Below are positions 1,391 to 34,984 of a DNA stretch of 64,000 nt, in pieces. The notes below the pieces were generated by a model. That model was not told the DNA's origin. It saw nothing but the letters and a program-made list of their open reading frames with translations, and did no database searches. The stretch is taken from contig NZ_SOAM01000001.1 of assembly GCF_004364555.1 (NCBI RefSeq), forward strand, positions 310,001 to 374,000. The letters run 5' to 3'. Made by a program: the position numbers and the translations under genes. The stretch is from Amnibacterium kyonggiense. Its GTDB lineage: Bacteria; Actinomycetota; Actinomycetes; Actinomycetales; Microbacteriaceae. How positions within the stretch are numbered: position 1 is the first letter of the stretch; each line of letters starts with the position of its first letter.

Positions 1391-2662
1391 GTGCTGACCG
1401 CTCTGACCGCCGACTACCGCACGGCGGGGTTCGAGGTCCTCGAGCGGCTCGCGACCGTGTCCCCCGAGACCTTCGCGCGATTCGTCGGCGCCCATCGGGG
1501 CGTGCGCGGCGGCGTGCTGCTGGCGACCTGCAACCGCTTCGAGGCCTACCTCGACGTCGCCGACGAGGCGGAGGTCGACGGGCTGCTCGACTTCGCCGCC
1601 GCGGAGGCGGGCGTCGACGCGGCCGCGGTCGCCGACGCCGCCGCCCGCCGCACCGGGTCCGACCTCGCCGGACACCTCTTCGCGGTGTCGAGCGGCCTCG
1701 AGTCCCTCGTCGTCGGGGAGGCGGAGATCGCCGGTCAGGTGTCCCGCGCGCTCGAGGCGGCGCGCGGGCTCGGCACGACGACGCCCGACCTCGAGCGCCT
1801 CTTCCAGCGCGCCTCCCGCACCTCCAGCGCCGTCCAGCAGCGCACGCGGGTCGGCAGCGCGGGCCGCAGCATCGTCCGGCTCGCCCTCGACCTCGCGGGC
1901 AGCCGCGTGACGGACTGGGCGACGACCCGGGTGCTGCTCATCGGCACCGGCACGTACGCCCGGGCGACGCTCGCCGCCCTGCGCGACCGCGGGGTGCACG
2001 AGATCGCCGTGTACTCGCCGAGCGGCCGCGCCCTGAAGTTCGCGCAGCGGGAGGGCGTCGTCGCCGTGACCCGCACGGATCTGCCGCACCGCCTCGCCCT
2101 CGCGGACATCGTCATCTCGTGCAGCATCGCGACGACCCCGATCCTCGACGCGGAGAAGCTGCGCCGGGCCCGCTCGGTCGTGGCCGAGCCTGCCCGCCAG
2201 CTCGTCGTCGACCTCGGCATGCCCCGGAACATCGAGCCGGACGTCGCGGGCCTGCAGGACGTCGACCTGCTCGACCTCGAGACGATCGGCAAGCACGCCC
2301 CGCTGCCCGAGCTGCAGGCGACCGACGACGCGCTCGCCCTCATCGCGGAGGCGGTCGCCGAGTACGGCGCCGACCAGCGCGCGACCGCGGCGACCCCGGC
2401 GGTCGTCGCCTACCGCGCCCACGTGTTCGAGCTGGTCGATCAGGAGATCGAGCGCCTCCGCCGGAAGGGCGAGGCGACGGAGGCCGTGGAGCGCGCGATG
2501 CGCCACCTGGCGGGCGTGCTCGTGCACACGCCGTCCGCCCGCGCCCGCGAGCTCGCCGCCGCGGGCGAGGCGCAGCGCTTCGCGGACGCCGTCGAGACCC
2601 TGCACGGGCTCAGCACGTCGCCGGCGAGCGACGAGCAGCCCGGCACGGTTCTCGCCGGCTGA
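1391..2662 (+). CDS. hemA: Glutamyl-tRNA reductase
   Basis: HemA reduces glutamyl-tRNA(Glu) with NADPH to glutamate-1-semialdehyde, the first committed step of the C5 haem route. The 423-residue protein has the catalytic LATCNRFE motif with Cys47, the core GLESLVVGEAEI block, an NADPH-binding region around LLIGTGTYARATLAAL, and DLGMPRNIEPDV. The C-terminal helical dimerisation domain is complete (IERLRRKGEA). The start is a GTG directly after a TAGAAT box, so it is probably translated without a leader. It is divergent from hemE-hemG, which places entry and late steps of the pathway on one regulatory interval. Confidence 0.96.
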   Translation: MLTALTADYRTAGFEVLERLATVSPETFARFVGAHRGVRGGVLLATCNRFEAYLDVADEAEVDGLLDFAAAEAGVDAAAVADAAARRTGSDLAGHLFAVSSGLESLVVGEAEIAGQVSRALEAARGLGTTTPDLERLFQRASRTSSAVQQRTRVGSAGRSIVRLALDLAGSRVTDWATTRVLLIGTGTYARATLAALRDRGVHEIAVYSPSGRALKFAQREGVVAVTRTDLPHRLALADIVISCSIATTPILDAEKLRRARSVVAEPARQLVVDLGMPRNIEPDVAGLQDVDLLDLETIGKHAPLPELQATDDALALIAEAVAEYGADQRATAATPAVVAYRAHVFELVDQEIERLRRKGEATEAVERAMRHLAGVLVHTPSARARELAAAGEAQRFADAVETLHGLSTSPASDEQPGTVLAG

Positions 2663-2668
2663 CGCCGC

Positions 2669-2959
2669 TCAGTCCTGCGGCGGTCGCCAGCCGATCGCGC
2701 GGACGCCGAGGTGGATGCTGCCGACGAGCAGCGCGATCACCGCGAGGACGCCGCTCAACGCGAAGCACCCTCCGCCGCCCGTCGGCGTCTGCTGCAGTCC
2801 CGCACCGATGAAGAGCAGCAGCACCGTCAGCGTGCCCGCCGAGGCCCAGATGATCCCGAGCGCGGCGTCGTACGGGTTCCGGACCCGCCGGACGACGCCG
2901 TCGACCTGCAGCGCCGGAGGGACCGCGCGGAACCCGGTCTCCGGGTCGAATGTGCTCAT
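2669..2959 (-). CDS. Small two-helix membrane protein, function unknown
   Basis: This is a 96-residue protein beginning MSTFDPETGFRAV. It has a soluble N-terminus of about 30 residues, a hydrophobic segment at roughly 34-55 (ALGIIWASAGTLTVLLLF), a glycine-rich turn (PTGGGG) and a second segment at roughly 66-88. I do not recognise the family. The ATG at 2959 is chosen because the frame above it reads as arginine- and serine-rich non-coding sequence. It converges with hemA, with only 6 bp between stop codons. Confidence 0.6.
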   Translation of the reverse strand: MSTFDPETGFRAVPPALQVDGVVRRVRNPYDAALGIIWASAGTLTVLLLFIGAGLQQTPTGGGGCFALSGVLAVIALLVGSIHLGVRAIGWRPPQD

Positions 2960-3073
2960 CGCTGGATGCTGGCAGAGGAATGCGCCGCAGCGCACCCTCG
3001 GATTCGCGGAATGCGCTCTCGAGGATCTCCCAAGACACGTGCGAGAACCCGTAACCTCCGCGTAACTTCCGCG

Positions 3074-3079
3074 TATCAT
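3074..3079 (+). promoter_or_regulatory. Candidate -10 box, leaderless start at 3087
   Basis: TATCAT lies 7 nt before the GTG at 3087, with no ribosome-binding site between them. Confidence 0.45.
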
Positions 3080-3086
3080 CCGCACC

Positions 3087-3389
3087 GTGGCGTACCGAGT
3101 CGTGATCCCGCGCAGCATCCCGTTCGGCGAGTCGAACCGGGTGCAGCAGGCGGTGTGGAAGCGCGGCTACAGCACGCGCATCGCGGGCCGCGACGCCGCA
3201 CAGCCGGACCAGGTCGTGGTCGAGTTCCTCCGCATGGTCGACGAGCTGCCCGAGCCGGGCGACGTCCCGGCGCTGGAGCAGGACCTCGAGCGGCTCCTCT
3301 CGAGCAGCCGCATCGATGCGCCGTTCATGGGCCGCGGCGGCTGGGTCGAGACGGTGCAGAACCGCCCGGCCCGCAAGCGCATCGCCTGA
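3087..3389 (+). CDS. Hypothetical 100-residue protein
   Basis: This small soluble basic protein begins with a GTG (MAYRVVIPRSIPFGESNRVQ) and ends in NRPARKRIA. It has no membrane segment, signal peptide or motif that I recognise. The case for a real gene is the leaderless-type TATCAT box 7 nt upstream, residue use unlike the overlapping frames (mixed charged and hydrophobic rather than Arg/Ala runs) and a 115-bp gap on the left. It is followed by a large intergenic palindrome. Confidence 0.5.
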   Translation: MAYRVVIPRSIPFGESNRVQQAVWKRGYSTRIAGRDAAQPDQVVVEFLRMVDELPEPGDVPALEQDLERLLSSSRIDAPFMGRGGWVETVQNRPARKRIA

Positions 3390-31449: not shown

Positions 31450-31573
31450 CCGCGGATCCGGATTCCTCCCACGGATCCGGAGATCCGCGGCGACACCCCG
31501 CGTTCCGTGCGCCCGCGGCGGCGTGTCGGGCGGGATCTCCGGATCCGCGAGTGGTTCCGGGAGACGGAGATCC
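31450..31573. repeat. Complex palindrome, GATACGGAGA family, copy C
   Basis: Immediately after the putA stop, CGGATCCGGAGATCC (31472-31486) pairs with 31533-31547. CGACAC (31491-31496) pairs with GTGTCG (31523-31528), and CCGCGGATC/GATCCGCGG form a smaller alternative hairpin. A further half copy, resembling GGTTCACCGATACGGAGATCC at 17 of 21 positions, lies at 31553-31573. Confidence 0.55.
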
Positions 31574-31638
31574 TCAGGTGCATTCCAGGTCCGAGGACAG
31601 AATTCCCCCTATCGCACCCGGCCGATAAGGGGATCTCG

Positions 31639-32187
31639 TTGCCCGATTCGCTCCTCCAGCTTCCCGTTGCGACGCCGACGGGCCTCCGCACCAGATGGCG
31701 CGACCGCCGTCGCCTCCAGCGCATCGATCGGCTGGGGGCCAGGCTCGCCCGCCTCGACGCGGTCGGCGACCTCCTCGACCGCACCCGGGCGCGCCTCGCC
31801 GCCGGCTGGGTGCAGGACGCCTGGTTCACGACCATCGACGAGCAGGGCGTCCGGCTGCACGTCGGCACCCTCCGGGCGCACGACGGCGAGCGCAGCGAGC
31901 GGGCCTGCCTGGTCGCTGCGGTCGCGATCGAGGCCCTGCCCGGCAGCATCACCGGGCCGGTGGGCCAGCGCGCGGTCGGCACGATGTGGAACGTGCTGCA
32001 CGGCGGTGTCCCCGCCGGCGACTGGAGCACGCCGCCCGGCGTGACCGCGGCACGCGCGTACGACCTCGTCCGGTGGAACGACGCCGCGGACCGCCGCCAC
32101 GACGACGTGCTCGCCCTCGTCGACGCGTCCCGGTCGTCCGTCGGCCGGTCCGCGGAGTCGCTGCGCTCGGAGCTCGCCGGCGCCTGA
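31639..32187 (+). CDS. DUF6197-like protein
   Basis: This 182-residue soluble protein has the pattern I associate with DUF6197: ARLAAGWVQDAWF, then ERACLVAAVAIEAL and the closing ARAYDLVRWNDAADRRHDDVLALVD. Function is unknown. I chose the TTG at 31639 because AAGGGGAT lies 7 nt upstream and the conserved part follows; earlier in-frame starts would run through the putA-downstream palindrome. It converges with the signal-peptidase gene, 6 bp apart. Confidence 0.65.
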   Translation: MPDSLLQLPVATPTGLRTRWRDRRRLQRIDRLGARLARLDAVGDLLDRTRARLAAGWVQDAWFTTIDEQGVRLHVGTLRAHDGERSERACLVAAVAIEALPGSITGPVGQRAVGTMWNVLHGGVPAGDWSTPPGVTAARAYDLVRWNDAADRRHDDVLALVDASRSSVGRSAESLRSELAGA

Positions 32188-32193
32188 CGCGCC

Positions 32194-33621
32194 TCAGTGC
32201 CCGCGCGCGAGGATCGGCGTGGGATCGACGACCGCGCCGTAGACCTGCGTCTCGTCGAGCATGCCCTGGAACTGCTGACGCGATGTCGCTCCCGTCCACT
32301 TGGACGACGTGACGGCGTCGTATCCGAAGCGCCAGTAGCCGCTGTAGGCGTTCAGGACCGCCACGGTGAGCGGCGGCGTGGGTGTCGAGACGGACGAGCC
32401 GTCGACCGTCAACGTGCACCCGTCGCGGTAGCTGAACGAGGCCACCGCCAGATGCCAGCCGTTGTCCGCATACCCGGTGGGCTTCGCGCTCGTGCAGAAG
32501 ATCGGGTTCCCGAGCAGGCCGGCGACCGACGTGGTCGTCGCGCCGAACGCGAGGTTGCCGTCCGCCTGCATGAAGAGCACGCGATCGATCTGCGTCGAAG
32601 GGGACGGGCTGGCGACCGAGCTGGACCCGCCGAAGTCCGCGAGCACGCCGCCGGGGTTCGCCGTCTTGAACCACGTGGCGACGGTGACCGTCCCCGGGTA
32701 GGAGCGCGACGTCTTCTCGACGATCAGGCCCTTGCTCGTGCCGCTCGACATGCCGACCTGCGCTGCCGGCGTGAACCCGTCGACGCACGTGACCGGCGCC
32801 GCATCGCTGCCGGACGGGGACGTGCCCGCGTCACCCTGACCGCTCAGGTCGGTCACGTCCGAGCCGCTGAGCGTGCCGTAGCCCCAGTAGAGGACGGGGC
32901 CGGCGCCGAGGTTCGTCGGCGTGCGGTCCGCGCAGGTCGTGCCCCAGGTGTTCCCCGACACGCTCGACACGGCCGAGTACGCCGCGCGGGCCGGCGCAGG
33001 AGATCCCGCAGCGACGGCACCCGCCGGGAGCACGAGGATCGCGACCCCGAGCGCAGTCGCACGATGCGCTCCCGGGAGCCGGACGCCGCGATGGCGGCGC
33101 CGCGACCGGTCCTCCGGGTCCTCGAGCAGCCGTCCGAGCCGCACGCCGGCGAGCAGCAGCGCGACCACCCCGCCGCCGACGAGCAGCGGGACCGGCTGAT
33201 CCGTCCGGACCCAGTAGTTCGGCAGCCCTGCGAAGGGGATGCGCAGGAACGCAGCACCGTGCACCGCGCCGGACCCGACCGTGGTCGAGTCCGCGGCATC
33301 GTTCGCGTCCCCCTTGGTCACCAGCTCACCGTCCGACCGCACTCGGACGAGCCGGTGCATCCGGAGCGCGCCCGCGCGATCCGGATCGTCGAACAGCAGC
33401 ACCTGCCCGTCCGAGAGCTGCCCGGCGTCGACCGGGCGGACGACGACGGCGTCGCCGACCTCCAGACGCGGCGTCATGGAGCCGGACATGACGGTCGTCG
33501 TCTGGAAGCCGACGAGATTCGGGAGCACGCCCCAGAGGAGCAGGGCGACGATCGTCGAGAGCGTCGAGCGGCAGACGACCGTGACGATCGCGACCGTCCA
33601 CGCCGCGCCCCGCGGGAGCAC
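32194..33621 (-). CDS. SipW-type signal peptidase I fused to a substrate-like LamG domain protein
   Basis: This is a 475-residue product. Residues 1-170 are an S26B (ER/SipW-type) signal peptidase: a membrane helix at about 8-30, nucleophile S48 in VMSGSMTP, catalytic His in R-M-H89-R, conserved VTKGDANDAADS (101-112), and a second helix at about 145-160. Residues 171-186 are a basic loop. Residues 187-213 look like a signal peptide (ALGVAILVLPAGAVAAG, then PARA) followed by AYSAVSSVSGNTW, the same kind of sequence that follows the signal in the TasA-like neighbour. A concanavalin/LamG-like beta-sandwich fills about 255-475 (VTVATWFKT, NGWHLAVASFSYRDGCTLTVDG, GMLDETQVYG). The GTG at 33621 is the likely start; a GTG at 33693 overlaps the upstream gene. 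Confidence 0.8.
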   Translation of the reverse strand: MLPRGAAWTVAIVTVVCRSTLSTIVALLLWGVLPNLVGFQTTTVMSGSMTPRLEVGDAVVVRPVDAGQLSDGQVLLFDDPDRAGALRMHRLVRVRSDGELVTKGDANDAADSTTVGSGAVHGAAFLRIPFAGLPNYWVRTDQPVPLLVGGGVVALLLAGVRLGRLLEDPEDRSRRRHRGVRLPGAHRATALGVAILVLPAGAVAAGSPAPARAAYSAVSSVSGNTWGTTCADRTPTNLGAGPVLYWGYGTLSGSDVTDLSGQGDAGTSPSGSDAAPVTCVDGFTPAAQVGMSSGTSKGLIVEKTSRSYPGTVTVATWFKTANPGGVLADFGGSSSVASPSPSTQIDRVLFMQADGNLAFGATTTSVAGLLGNPIFCTSAKPTGYADNGWHLAVASFSYRDGCTLTVDGSSVSTPTPPLTVAVLNAYSGYWRFGYDAVTSSKWTGATSRQQFQGMLDETQVYGAVVDPTPILARGH

Positions 33622-33671: not shown

Positions 33672-34271
33672 CTAGCTGCCCTGCGTTTCCCACGTGAAGG
33701 TCGCGGCGGCGGTGGAGCTCATCGGCGTCGTGGAGTCGTAGTTCCAGGTGAACTGGAACTGCTTCGTCTCGGCGGTGGTGCTGGCGGCCTGGGGAGCCCA
33801 CGTCGTCACGATGCCCGAGGCGTAATCGGTGTGCGCCGATCCGCCCGTCACCAGGTTCGCAAGGCTGCCGGTGTAGACCGTGCTGGCTGCCGTGAAGCCC
33901 GAGCAGGTCGACGCGTTCGTCGAACCCGACCCCATCTTCACGACCAGGTTGATGTGCTGACCGAGCGAGTTCGAGTCGCTGAAGCCGGTCGCGTAGAAGC
34001 GGACCGTGCTGGCGAGGGTGCCGTCCGACGTGACCGTCACGCACTTCGTACCGGTGGCGTTCATCTGCTGATTCGTGCCCGTGAACATCGCGGTTCCGAT
34101 GTCGTTCGTCAGGTGCACCGATCCCGTGTTCCACGAGTTTGCCGACACCGAGGTCGGGCTGCTGAAGGCCGAGTACGAGGCGGCCATCACGCCGCTGCCC
34201 GTTCCGACGATCGCGACACCGGCCGCGATCAGGCCGGAGAGCCGCCCGATGCGGCGAGTCATCTTCAGCAT
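33672..34271 (-). CDS. TasA/CalY-like SipW-dependent secreted protein
   Basis: This 199-residue exported protein has a basic start (MLKMTRRIGR), a hydrophobic segment (about 11-30) and the cleavage-type sequence SGVMAASYSAFSSPTSV that marks SipW-processed proteins. SANSWNTGSVHLTND follows, then a beta-rich body with two Cys. Bacillus relatives form matrix fibres; here only the substrate class can be stated. GGGGGAAGC lies just before the ATG. The SipW-type peptidase gene follows 50 bp downstream, as in Bacillus tasA/sipW clusters but in the opposite order. Confidence 0.8.
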   Translation of the reverse strand: MLKMTRRIGRLSGLIAAGVAIVGTGSGVMAASYSAFSSPTSVSANSWNTGSVHLTNDIGTAMFTGTNQQMNATGTKCVTVTSDGTLASTVRFYATGFSDSNSLGQHINLVVKMGSGSTNASTCSGFTAASTVYTGSLANLVTGGSAHTDYASGIVTTWAPQAASTTAETKQFQFTWNYDSTTPMSSTAAATFTWETQGS

Positions 34272-34635
34272 TGCTTCCCCCGAGAACGTCCGTGCCACCG
34301 GCCACCCCTCGCGGCCTGCGTGCATGGACGATGGCAGGCGGGACGACGCGAGGACACGGTGGAACCGCGACTTGCACGAATTGACGCGTGCCCCCCGCGC
34401 TGATGCGCGTGGCGACCCCCCATACTTCGCACTCGCGTCCCCCGGAGGGGCGGCACCTGTTCGGGAGGGGGCGGGAGCACGCGGAGCGGCGCGCCGTGCC
34501 GTCGAGGAGCGGCCCGAGGAGGGCCGGCGGCGTGCTCATCAGCACGAAGCCCCCTCGACCGAAGCCGTCGACCGGGCGAGCGTGCAGCGAGCCGGTGCGG
34601 CACGCTGCACGGCAGCGGCGCAGCCGTCGGCACGG
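34272..34635. other. Gap between tRNA-Ala and the TasA-like gene
   Basis: I see no credible gene here. A 9-nt hairpin, CGTGCAGCG (34581-34589)/CGCTGCACG (34603-34611), stands 25 bp past the tRNA-Ala 3' end and may terminate it. The promoter of the TasA-like gene must lie here but is not obvious. Confidence 0.4.
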
Positions 34636-34708
34636 TGGAGACTAGGGGACTCGAACCCCTGACCCCCTGCTTGCAAAGCAGGTGCTCTACCAACTGAGCT
34701 AAGCCCCC
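34636..34708 (-). tRNA. tRNA-Ala (anticodon TGC)
   Basis: The minus strand gives a 73-nt cloverleaf: acceptor GGGGGCT, D arm GCTCAGTTGGTAGAGC, anticodon stem CTGCT/AGCAG with TGC, and T arm CAGGGGTTCGAATCCCCTA. CCA is not encoded. Confidence 0.95.
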
Positions 34709-34871
34709 GAAGGGAAGACCGGGACGAGCCTACGCGACCGGCGCGCGACGTCGTCGTCCCAGGGGCCTGAGCAGGCGGACCGAGCCGGCGCACGCCGCAG
34801 CGACGCTGCAGGGGACCTGAGGTGCGACGCCGTCAGCCGAGCGGGCCGTTCAGGCCCGCCGGTACGGCACC

Positions 34872-34899
34872 GTCTTGGATCCGCTTGCGGATCCAAGAC
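34872..34899 (-). terminator. Perfect hairpin between tRNA-Ile and tRNA-Ala
   Basis: Thirteen-nt arms GTCTTGGATCCGC (34872-34884) and GCGGATCCAAGAC (34887-34899) enclose a TT loop, 12 bp past the tRNA-Ile 3' end. The 11-mer GGATCCAAGAC recurs in the palindrome at 54754-54861. Confidence 0.65.
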
Positions 34900-34910
34900 C
34901 ATGAATGCAG

Positions 34911-34984
34911 TGGGGCTACCAGGACTTGAACCTGGGACCTCTTCGTTATCAGCGAAGCGCTCTAACCGCCTGAGCTATAGCCCC
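34911..34984 (-). tRNA. tRNA-Ile (anticodon GAT)
   Basis: The minus strand gives a 74-nt cloverleaf: acceptor GGGGCTA/TAGCCCC, D arm GCTCAGGCGGTTAGAGC, anticodon stem CTTCG/CGAAG with GAT, and T arm CCAGGTTCAAGTCCTGG. CCA is not encoded. tRNA-Ile and tRNA-Ala next to gyrA are common in actinobacteria. Confidence 0.95.

Follow-up and report, generated by a model that had tools for sequence, protein, structure and literature searches.

The 64,000-nucleotide stretch of Amnibacterium kyonggiense analysed here (contig NZ_SOAM01000001.1, positions 310,001 to 374,000; referred to as the window) carries on its minus strand a gene (33621-32194) in which a SipW-type signal peptidase, an internal signal peptide and a LamG cargo are joined in a single frame of 475 aa. 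Translation presumably begins at GTG 33621, the first in-frame ATG, GTG or TTG after the stop of the neighbouring upstream gene, and the stop codon lies at 32194-32196. That neighbour (33672..34271, minus strand, its start being likewise putative) encodes a free secreted partner, apparently TasA/camelysin-like, which possesses a SipW-like signal peptide of its own (MAASYSAF); the cleavage-region peptides that a preliminary description of this DNA had quoted for it are present in the window. Stated most conservatively, the locus combines a conserved fusion of peptidase and client with an adjacent TasA-like gene.

The S26B catalytic domain occupies residues 23-137 (33211..33555, minus strand), where TIGR02228 scores 55.6 bits against a cut-off of 51.85. 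Together with the Ser-His active site, this match places the enzyme among the S26B peptidases (SipW, Sec11 and the archaeal enzymes), from which it differs by a C-terminal extension in which an internal signal peptide precedes a secreted domain; family profile and sequence searches with the peptidase also returned matches to Sec11 chains. The Pfam family PF10502 (Peptidase_S26) reached only 19.9 bits on the fusion, below its gathering score of 22.9, and the Bacillus SipW equivalog NF046067 only 58.7 bits against a cut-off of 190, so that by profile scores the enzyme is SipW-like but outside that equivalog. The codons of the catalytic residues Ser48 (33478..33480) and His89 (33355..33357) correspond to Ser and His in all 103 distinct fusions that were collected, the window included, and in 21 of 21 unfused peptidases; the position of Asp105 is likewise kept, with the other two, in 103/103 fusions.

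An AlphaFold2 model of the fusion, built with a 55-row alignment (mean pLDDT 80.5, pTM 0.55), predicts a first helix that would act as membrane anchor (residues 4-36, 33514..33612), a second membrane helix (residues 143-165, 33127..33195) and a third helix at residues 186-205, followed by a low-confidence stretch (198-229) and a beta-rich domain from residue 244. The latter contains the LamG domain (Laminin_G_3, residues 297-467, 32221..32733, minus strand), for which PF13385 scores 28.0 bits against a cut-off of 27.6. The LamG family profile led to chain 4qvs_A, an S-layer-domain-containing protein (4.4e-18), and a structure search of the cargo gave matches of the LamG/ConA-type fold; the toxin binding domains among these were taken as ordinary ConA-like fold matches. 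The order of peptidase, basic loop, signal-like segment and LamG domain in one frame, as given in the preliminary description, is thus borne out on the minus strand by TIGR02228, PF13385 and the model, and its positions for Ser48, His89, the segment 187-206 and a cut near residue 213 were right, as was its estimate of a piece of about 26 kDa (residues 214-475 have a calculated mass of 26.7 kDa).

A first genome scan that used the single fusion protein as query found no relative; relatives were later obtained with a profile. The fusion profile was searched against 398 genomes of the family, with three candidates per genome scored, and 72 loci among the matches listed were inspected (L018, L036 and L041-L110, two being duplicates): SipW and LamG share one frame in 32 (broken in L090), SipW is fused to another cargo in 16, and SipW and LamG occupy two frames in 22. 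A profile scan of named genomes yielded 133 confirmed loci, the best 80 of which span Amnibacterium, Curtobacterium, Frigoribacterium, Arthrobacter, Geodermatophilus, Modestobacter, Nakamurella, Enemella, Flexivirga and others. In 78 of these 80 the peptidase continues for at least 60 more residues in one frame, the exceptions (L136 and L161) being broken frames. Two duplicates (L069, L070), two broken frames (L090, L136), L161 with its 55-residue tail and the 22 two-frame loci were dropped, leaving 124 rows, and the removal of 21 further duplicates resulted in 103 non-redundant one-frame fusions including the window, 72 with LamG and 31 with other cargo, many of them from related strains. The domain order that had been proposed as something to seek in relatives is present in the LamG fusions among them.

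In a quick tree of 99 peptidases (77 named fusions, the window and 21 unfused rows, with L018 left out), the fused enzymes group together and are separated from all 21 unfused ones, with long branches meeting at the split, and the fewest changes of cargo label among the fusions is 3. A homologue of the partner lies upstream of 102/103 fusions (101/102 without the window), the sole fusion lacking it, L171, beginning near a contig end, and the pair of genes is kept together in several families. Three of the other-cargo fusions (L179, L166, L151) were scanned against Pfam, and none showed a convincing cargo domain. No report of a peptidase-LamG fusion was found in the literature, as far as titles and abstract openings among the matches listed in open-licence PubMed Central reveal. 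Three variants of the arrangement may be recorded here: a single Modestobacter fusion bears two LamG stretches (L149, 2803-5022), another Modestobacter locus has two fusions in tandem (L146, 2-2068 and 2317-4383), and in the Curtobacterium locus L161 the fusion frame and the partner frame are both interrupted.

The segment between the two halves of the fusion has the anatomy of a SipW-type signal peptide, namely a basic n-region, a hydrophobic core, small residues at P3 and P1 and an aromatic residue at P2'. Its core, delimited by hydrophobicity and the AlphaFold2 model, comprises residues 187-206 (33004..33063, minus strand) and is preceded by a basic loop; over the 103 fusions the linker from the end of the peptidase match to the core varies from 7 to 110 residues (median 39), and the 12 residues before the core carry a net positive charge in 92. 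Conservation and motif statistics point to cleavage between A213 and A214 (32980..32985), where the window reads ARA213|AYS with Y215 at P2'; this point lies within the low-confidence stretch of the model. In the 55-row alignment, from which L149 was left out, A213 is at least 90% conserved and is the sole nearly invariant column between R172 and C230. The motif (small-x-small, one residue, then F, W or Y at P2') occurs in 95 of the 103 fusions, as compared to a mean of 50.9 and a maximum of 69 in 1000 shuffles, and is found with both kinds of cargo (70/72 LamG, 25/31 other). For the stricter A.A form the count is 49/103 against a shuffled mean of 10.2 and maximum of 22. Of the 95 rows with the motif, 85 have Ala at P1 and 78 have Phe at P2'.

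An aromatic P2' residue may hinder the ordinary signal peptidase LepB. In the available text of PMC10269814, none of 143 LepB-cleaved proteins has an aromatic residue at this position, and TasA, with Phe at P2', is described as being processed by SipW. The same text puts the LepB resistance of TasA down mainly to Trp at P2, and since the fusions as a rule lack this residue, having mostly His, Gly or Ala at P2, the argument is only a partial one. By its sequence the segment looks suited to an S26B enzyme, and any resistance to LepB is conjectural.

Two lines of evidence hint at a link between the partner gene and TasA. In a search with PF12389 (camelysin/TasA), 49 of 70 rows of partner homologues match at E values up to 0.1, the best being 6.5e-7. 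Also, in a PDB search with the model of the window's partner (pLDDT 77), the TasA fibre 8aur came out on top with E 6.3e-5 and a probability of 1.00; no other match had an E value below 0.001. A sequence-profile search of the PDB with the partner gave weak matches that included no TasA chain.

The genome that contains the fusion also has a separate-gene version of the system (L036), in which partner, SipW and LamG are consecutive genes in the same order as in the window. Here the LamG protein has its own SipW-like signal peptide, and the possible GTG start of its gene overlaps the SipW stop by 4 bases. The two loci differ in that the L036 genes are separate and overlapping, and in that the L036 SipW falls outside the fused group in the quick tree. 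In a genome from another family of the order (G059, L014), the end of the SipW frame is directly followed, without a change of frame, by a secreted-protein gene that has an ATG of its own, an arrangement that possibly pictures the unfused state. A further variant is seen in L010, where the SipW frame (1225-2271) stops just past a signal-peptide-like segment and is followed by a gene (2522-3166) for a protein resembling the TasA-like partner in sequence.

After the predicted cut, the mature N-terminus of the cargo (residues 214-228, 32938..32982, minus strand) resembles that of the partner and is a possible donor strand. This likeness was scored in 94 fused pairs with the first four mature residues omitted; 8 of 102 pairs were dropped as they lack the motif, and some of the cut points used look misplaced, for example that of L172. 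In the fused set, cargo and own partner score 22.7 on average against 18.2 for shuffled sequences (highest value in 50 shuffles 19.05), and a stretch further along the cargo scores 17.3. In the unfused set (18 of 22 loci) own pairs reach 34.2 compared to 18.4 when shuffled, and in the two systems of the window's genome own pairs score 36 and 42 while swapped pairs score 16 and 13. Pairs of the same kind score 20.5 (fused) and 30.9 (unfused), pairs of different kinds 18.2 and 18.4. Judged by such scores, the two N-termini are strongly alike in the unfused set as well as in the window's genome, and on average weakly to modestly so across the fused set.

These relations recall the tapA-sipW-tasA operon of Bacillus subtilis, which appears to have in common with our locus a TasA-like major subunit, a SipW-type peptidase and a minor SipW client with an N-terminus resembling the TasA donor strand. 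According to the available portion of PMC9674648, the donor strand of TasA comprises residues 28-38 and the N-terminus of TapA resembles it, and in that of PMC10151520 TapA is the initiator, and tapA and sipW overlap in their stop and start codons. It is on the N-terminal likeness and these reported features of TapA that we base our view of the cargo as a starter similar to TapA, in which LamG would serve as end domain. An N-terminus like that of the TasA partner, the feature by which we compare the cargo with TapA, is clear in the window's genome and modest across the fused set, and by analogy the cargo may work like TapA without being a member of the TapA family. The systems differ in that peptidase and minor client are separate in B. 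subtilis and form one polypeptide here, in the order of the genes, and in the client itself, which is LamG or another domain as opposed to the Ig fold of B. subtilis TapA. The sipW-calY operon of Bacillus cereus combines SipW with two camelysins, and as far as the available text of PMC10151520 goes, no peptidase-client fusion is mentioned for it, unlike the situation in the window.

Of several possible explanations, we favour the one in which the locus represents a TasA-type fibre operon made up of two genes, with peptidase and TapA-like fibre initiator combined in one polyprotein, and we consider this probable, though by no means assured. Gene 1 would provide the TasA/camelysin-like subunit, and gene 2 the polyprotein, of which the SipW-type (Ser-His, S26B) peptidase chain would span the membrane twice, return through the basic cytosolic loop and enter the membrane once more with the third segment as a SipW-like signal peptide, thereby leading the LamG cargo to the outside. 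The cut after A213 would then be made by an S26B peptidase, in the simplest case the one in the fusion itself, and would leave the enzyme free in the membrane and expose a cargo N-terminus similar to that of the free subunit. In analogy to TapA, this N-terminus would supply the first strand for a TasA-like subunit and thereby start or cap a fibre with a LamG adhesin. The preliminary description had proposed an enzyme-substrate polyprotein that cleaves itself or a sibling molecule; the first part of this gains support from the comparison (Ser and His in 103/103, Ala at P1, an aromatic residue at P2'), and the cutting by the same or a sibling molecule is something that we infer. The likeness of the neighbour to TasA, the conservation of the gene pair and the separate-gene version in the genome come in addition to what that description had recognised. 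More tentatively, and with odds that we place somewhat below even, the self-processing polyprotein may deliver peptidase and first subunit of a donor-strand fibre at a fixed ratio, with the two systems of the genome being kept apart by system-specific donor strands.

Several observations weigh against this interpretation. The cargo does not have the Ig fold of the TapA body, the window's own copy of the partner has no Pfam match, PF12389 included, and the TM-scores of its model with 8aur are modest (0.48/0.41, rmsd 6.3). The cleavage motif is absent, by the pattern used, from 8 of the 103 fusions, Trp at P2 is generally missing as described above, and none of the NCBIfam signal-peptide models matched the internal segment or the partners at E values up to 10 (the names returned by that scan were unrelated, all below cut-off, and were rejected). 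In the fused set, the own pair scores above the swapped pair in just 61 of 94 cases, a count in which relatedness is uncontrolled, and the same-kind mean of 20.5 is little above the different-kind values of 18.2 and 18.4. The distribution is patchy even within the window's genus, as the fusion protein was matched in 3 of 7 genomes, one of them (G004) having a broken frame. Finally, the genome contains two other S26B-like matches (50.8 and 46.1 bits, both below the TIGR02228 cut-off of 51.85), and because of these the fused enzyme need not be the cutter.

This last point leads to an alternative in which another S26B peptidase releases the cargo and the fusion mainly sets the ratio of enzyme to minor subunit. 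It overlaps with the interpretation that we favour, where the cutting agent is left open, and we regard it as rather unlikely, if the strongest of the competing explanations. The two additional matches, sub-cut-off as they are, speak for it, as does the variable linker, which imposes no fixed cis geometry; the retention of both Ser and His in every one of the fusions and the joint movement of the gene pair in several families speak against it.

Less likely still, and in our view improbable, is that the internal segment forms a permanent third membrane helix, so that LamG would be tethered as the base of a fibre or as a module that keeps substrates or cell-wall sugars close to the active site. 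The hydrophobicity of the segment suffices for a membrane helix, a fixed anchor would keep a fibre attached to the cell, and the available text of PMC10151520 has TapA colocalizing with the membrane. A plain anchor, however, has no need of a conserved A213 and an aromatic P2' residue in a linker of variable length, and the LamG paralogue in this genome has its own start codon and signal peptide.

That an error of sequencing or assembly fused two genes, or that the cargo is made from an internal start, is so improbable that we set it aside: the paralogous locus does have overlapping separate genes and a GTG sits 27 codons before the signal segment, but there are 103 distinct one-frame sequences (many from related strains), which refute the error and with it the frameshift artefact that had been named as a possible refutation, so that the fusion is real, and in 30 of the 103 the stretch from the end of the peptidase match to the hydrophobic core contains no in-frame ATG, GTG or TTG, for which reason separate initiation was rejected. 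The GTG in question (33144) is the nearest one and lies in the second membrane helix, no purine-rich ribosome site was seen for it, and the next in-frame start (33033) is inside the signal segment, in keeping with the earlier remark that no suitable start directly precedes that segment.

Should the interpretation that we favour, the peptidase and TapA-like initiator in one polyprotein, be correct, it would extend TasA-type fibre assembly to the actinobacteria. It would also offer, in the form of a naturally occurring enzyme-client fusion, a means to study client choice by ER-type signal peptidases, and would make the start of a Gram-positive donor-strand fibre testable with one polypeptide. 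The cargo slot, filled by LamG or another domain, may alter what the fibre end binds.

A scan for promoters and terminators found nothing. Genes for tRNA-Ala and tRNA-Ile adjoin the locus (window positions 34634-34984), as they do in Amnibacterium setariae, and on its other side lies a convergent gene on the plus strand (31507-32187) that encodes a DUF6197 domain.
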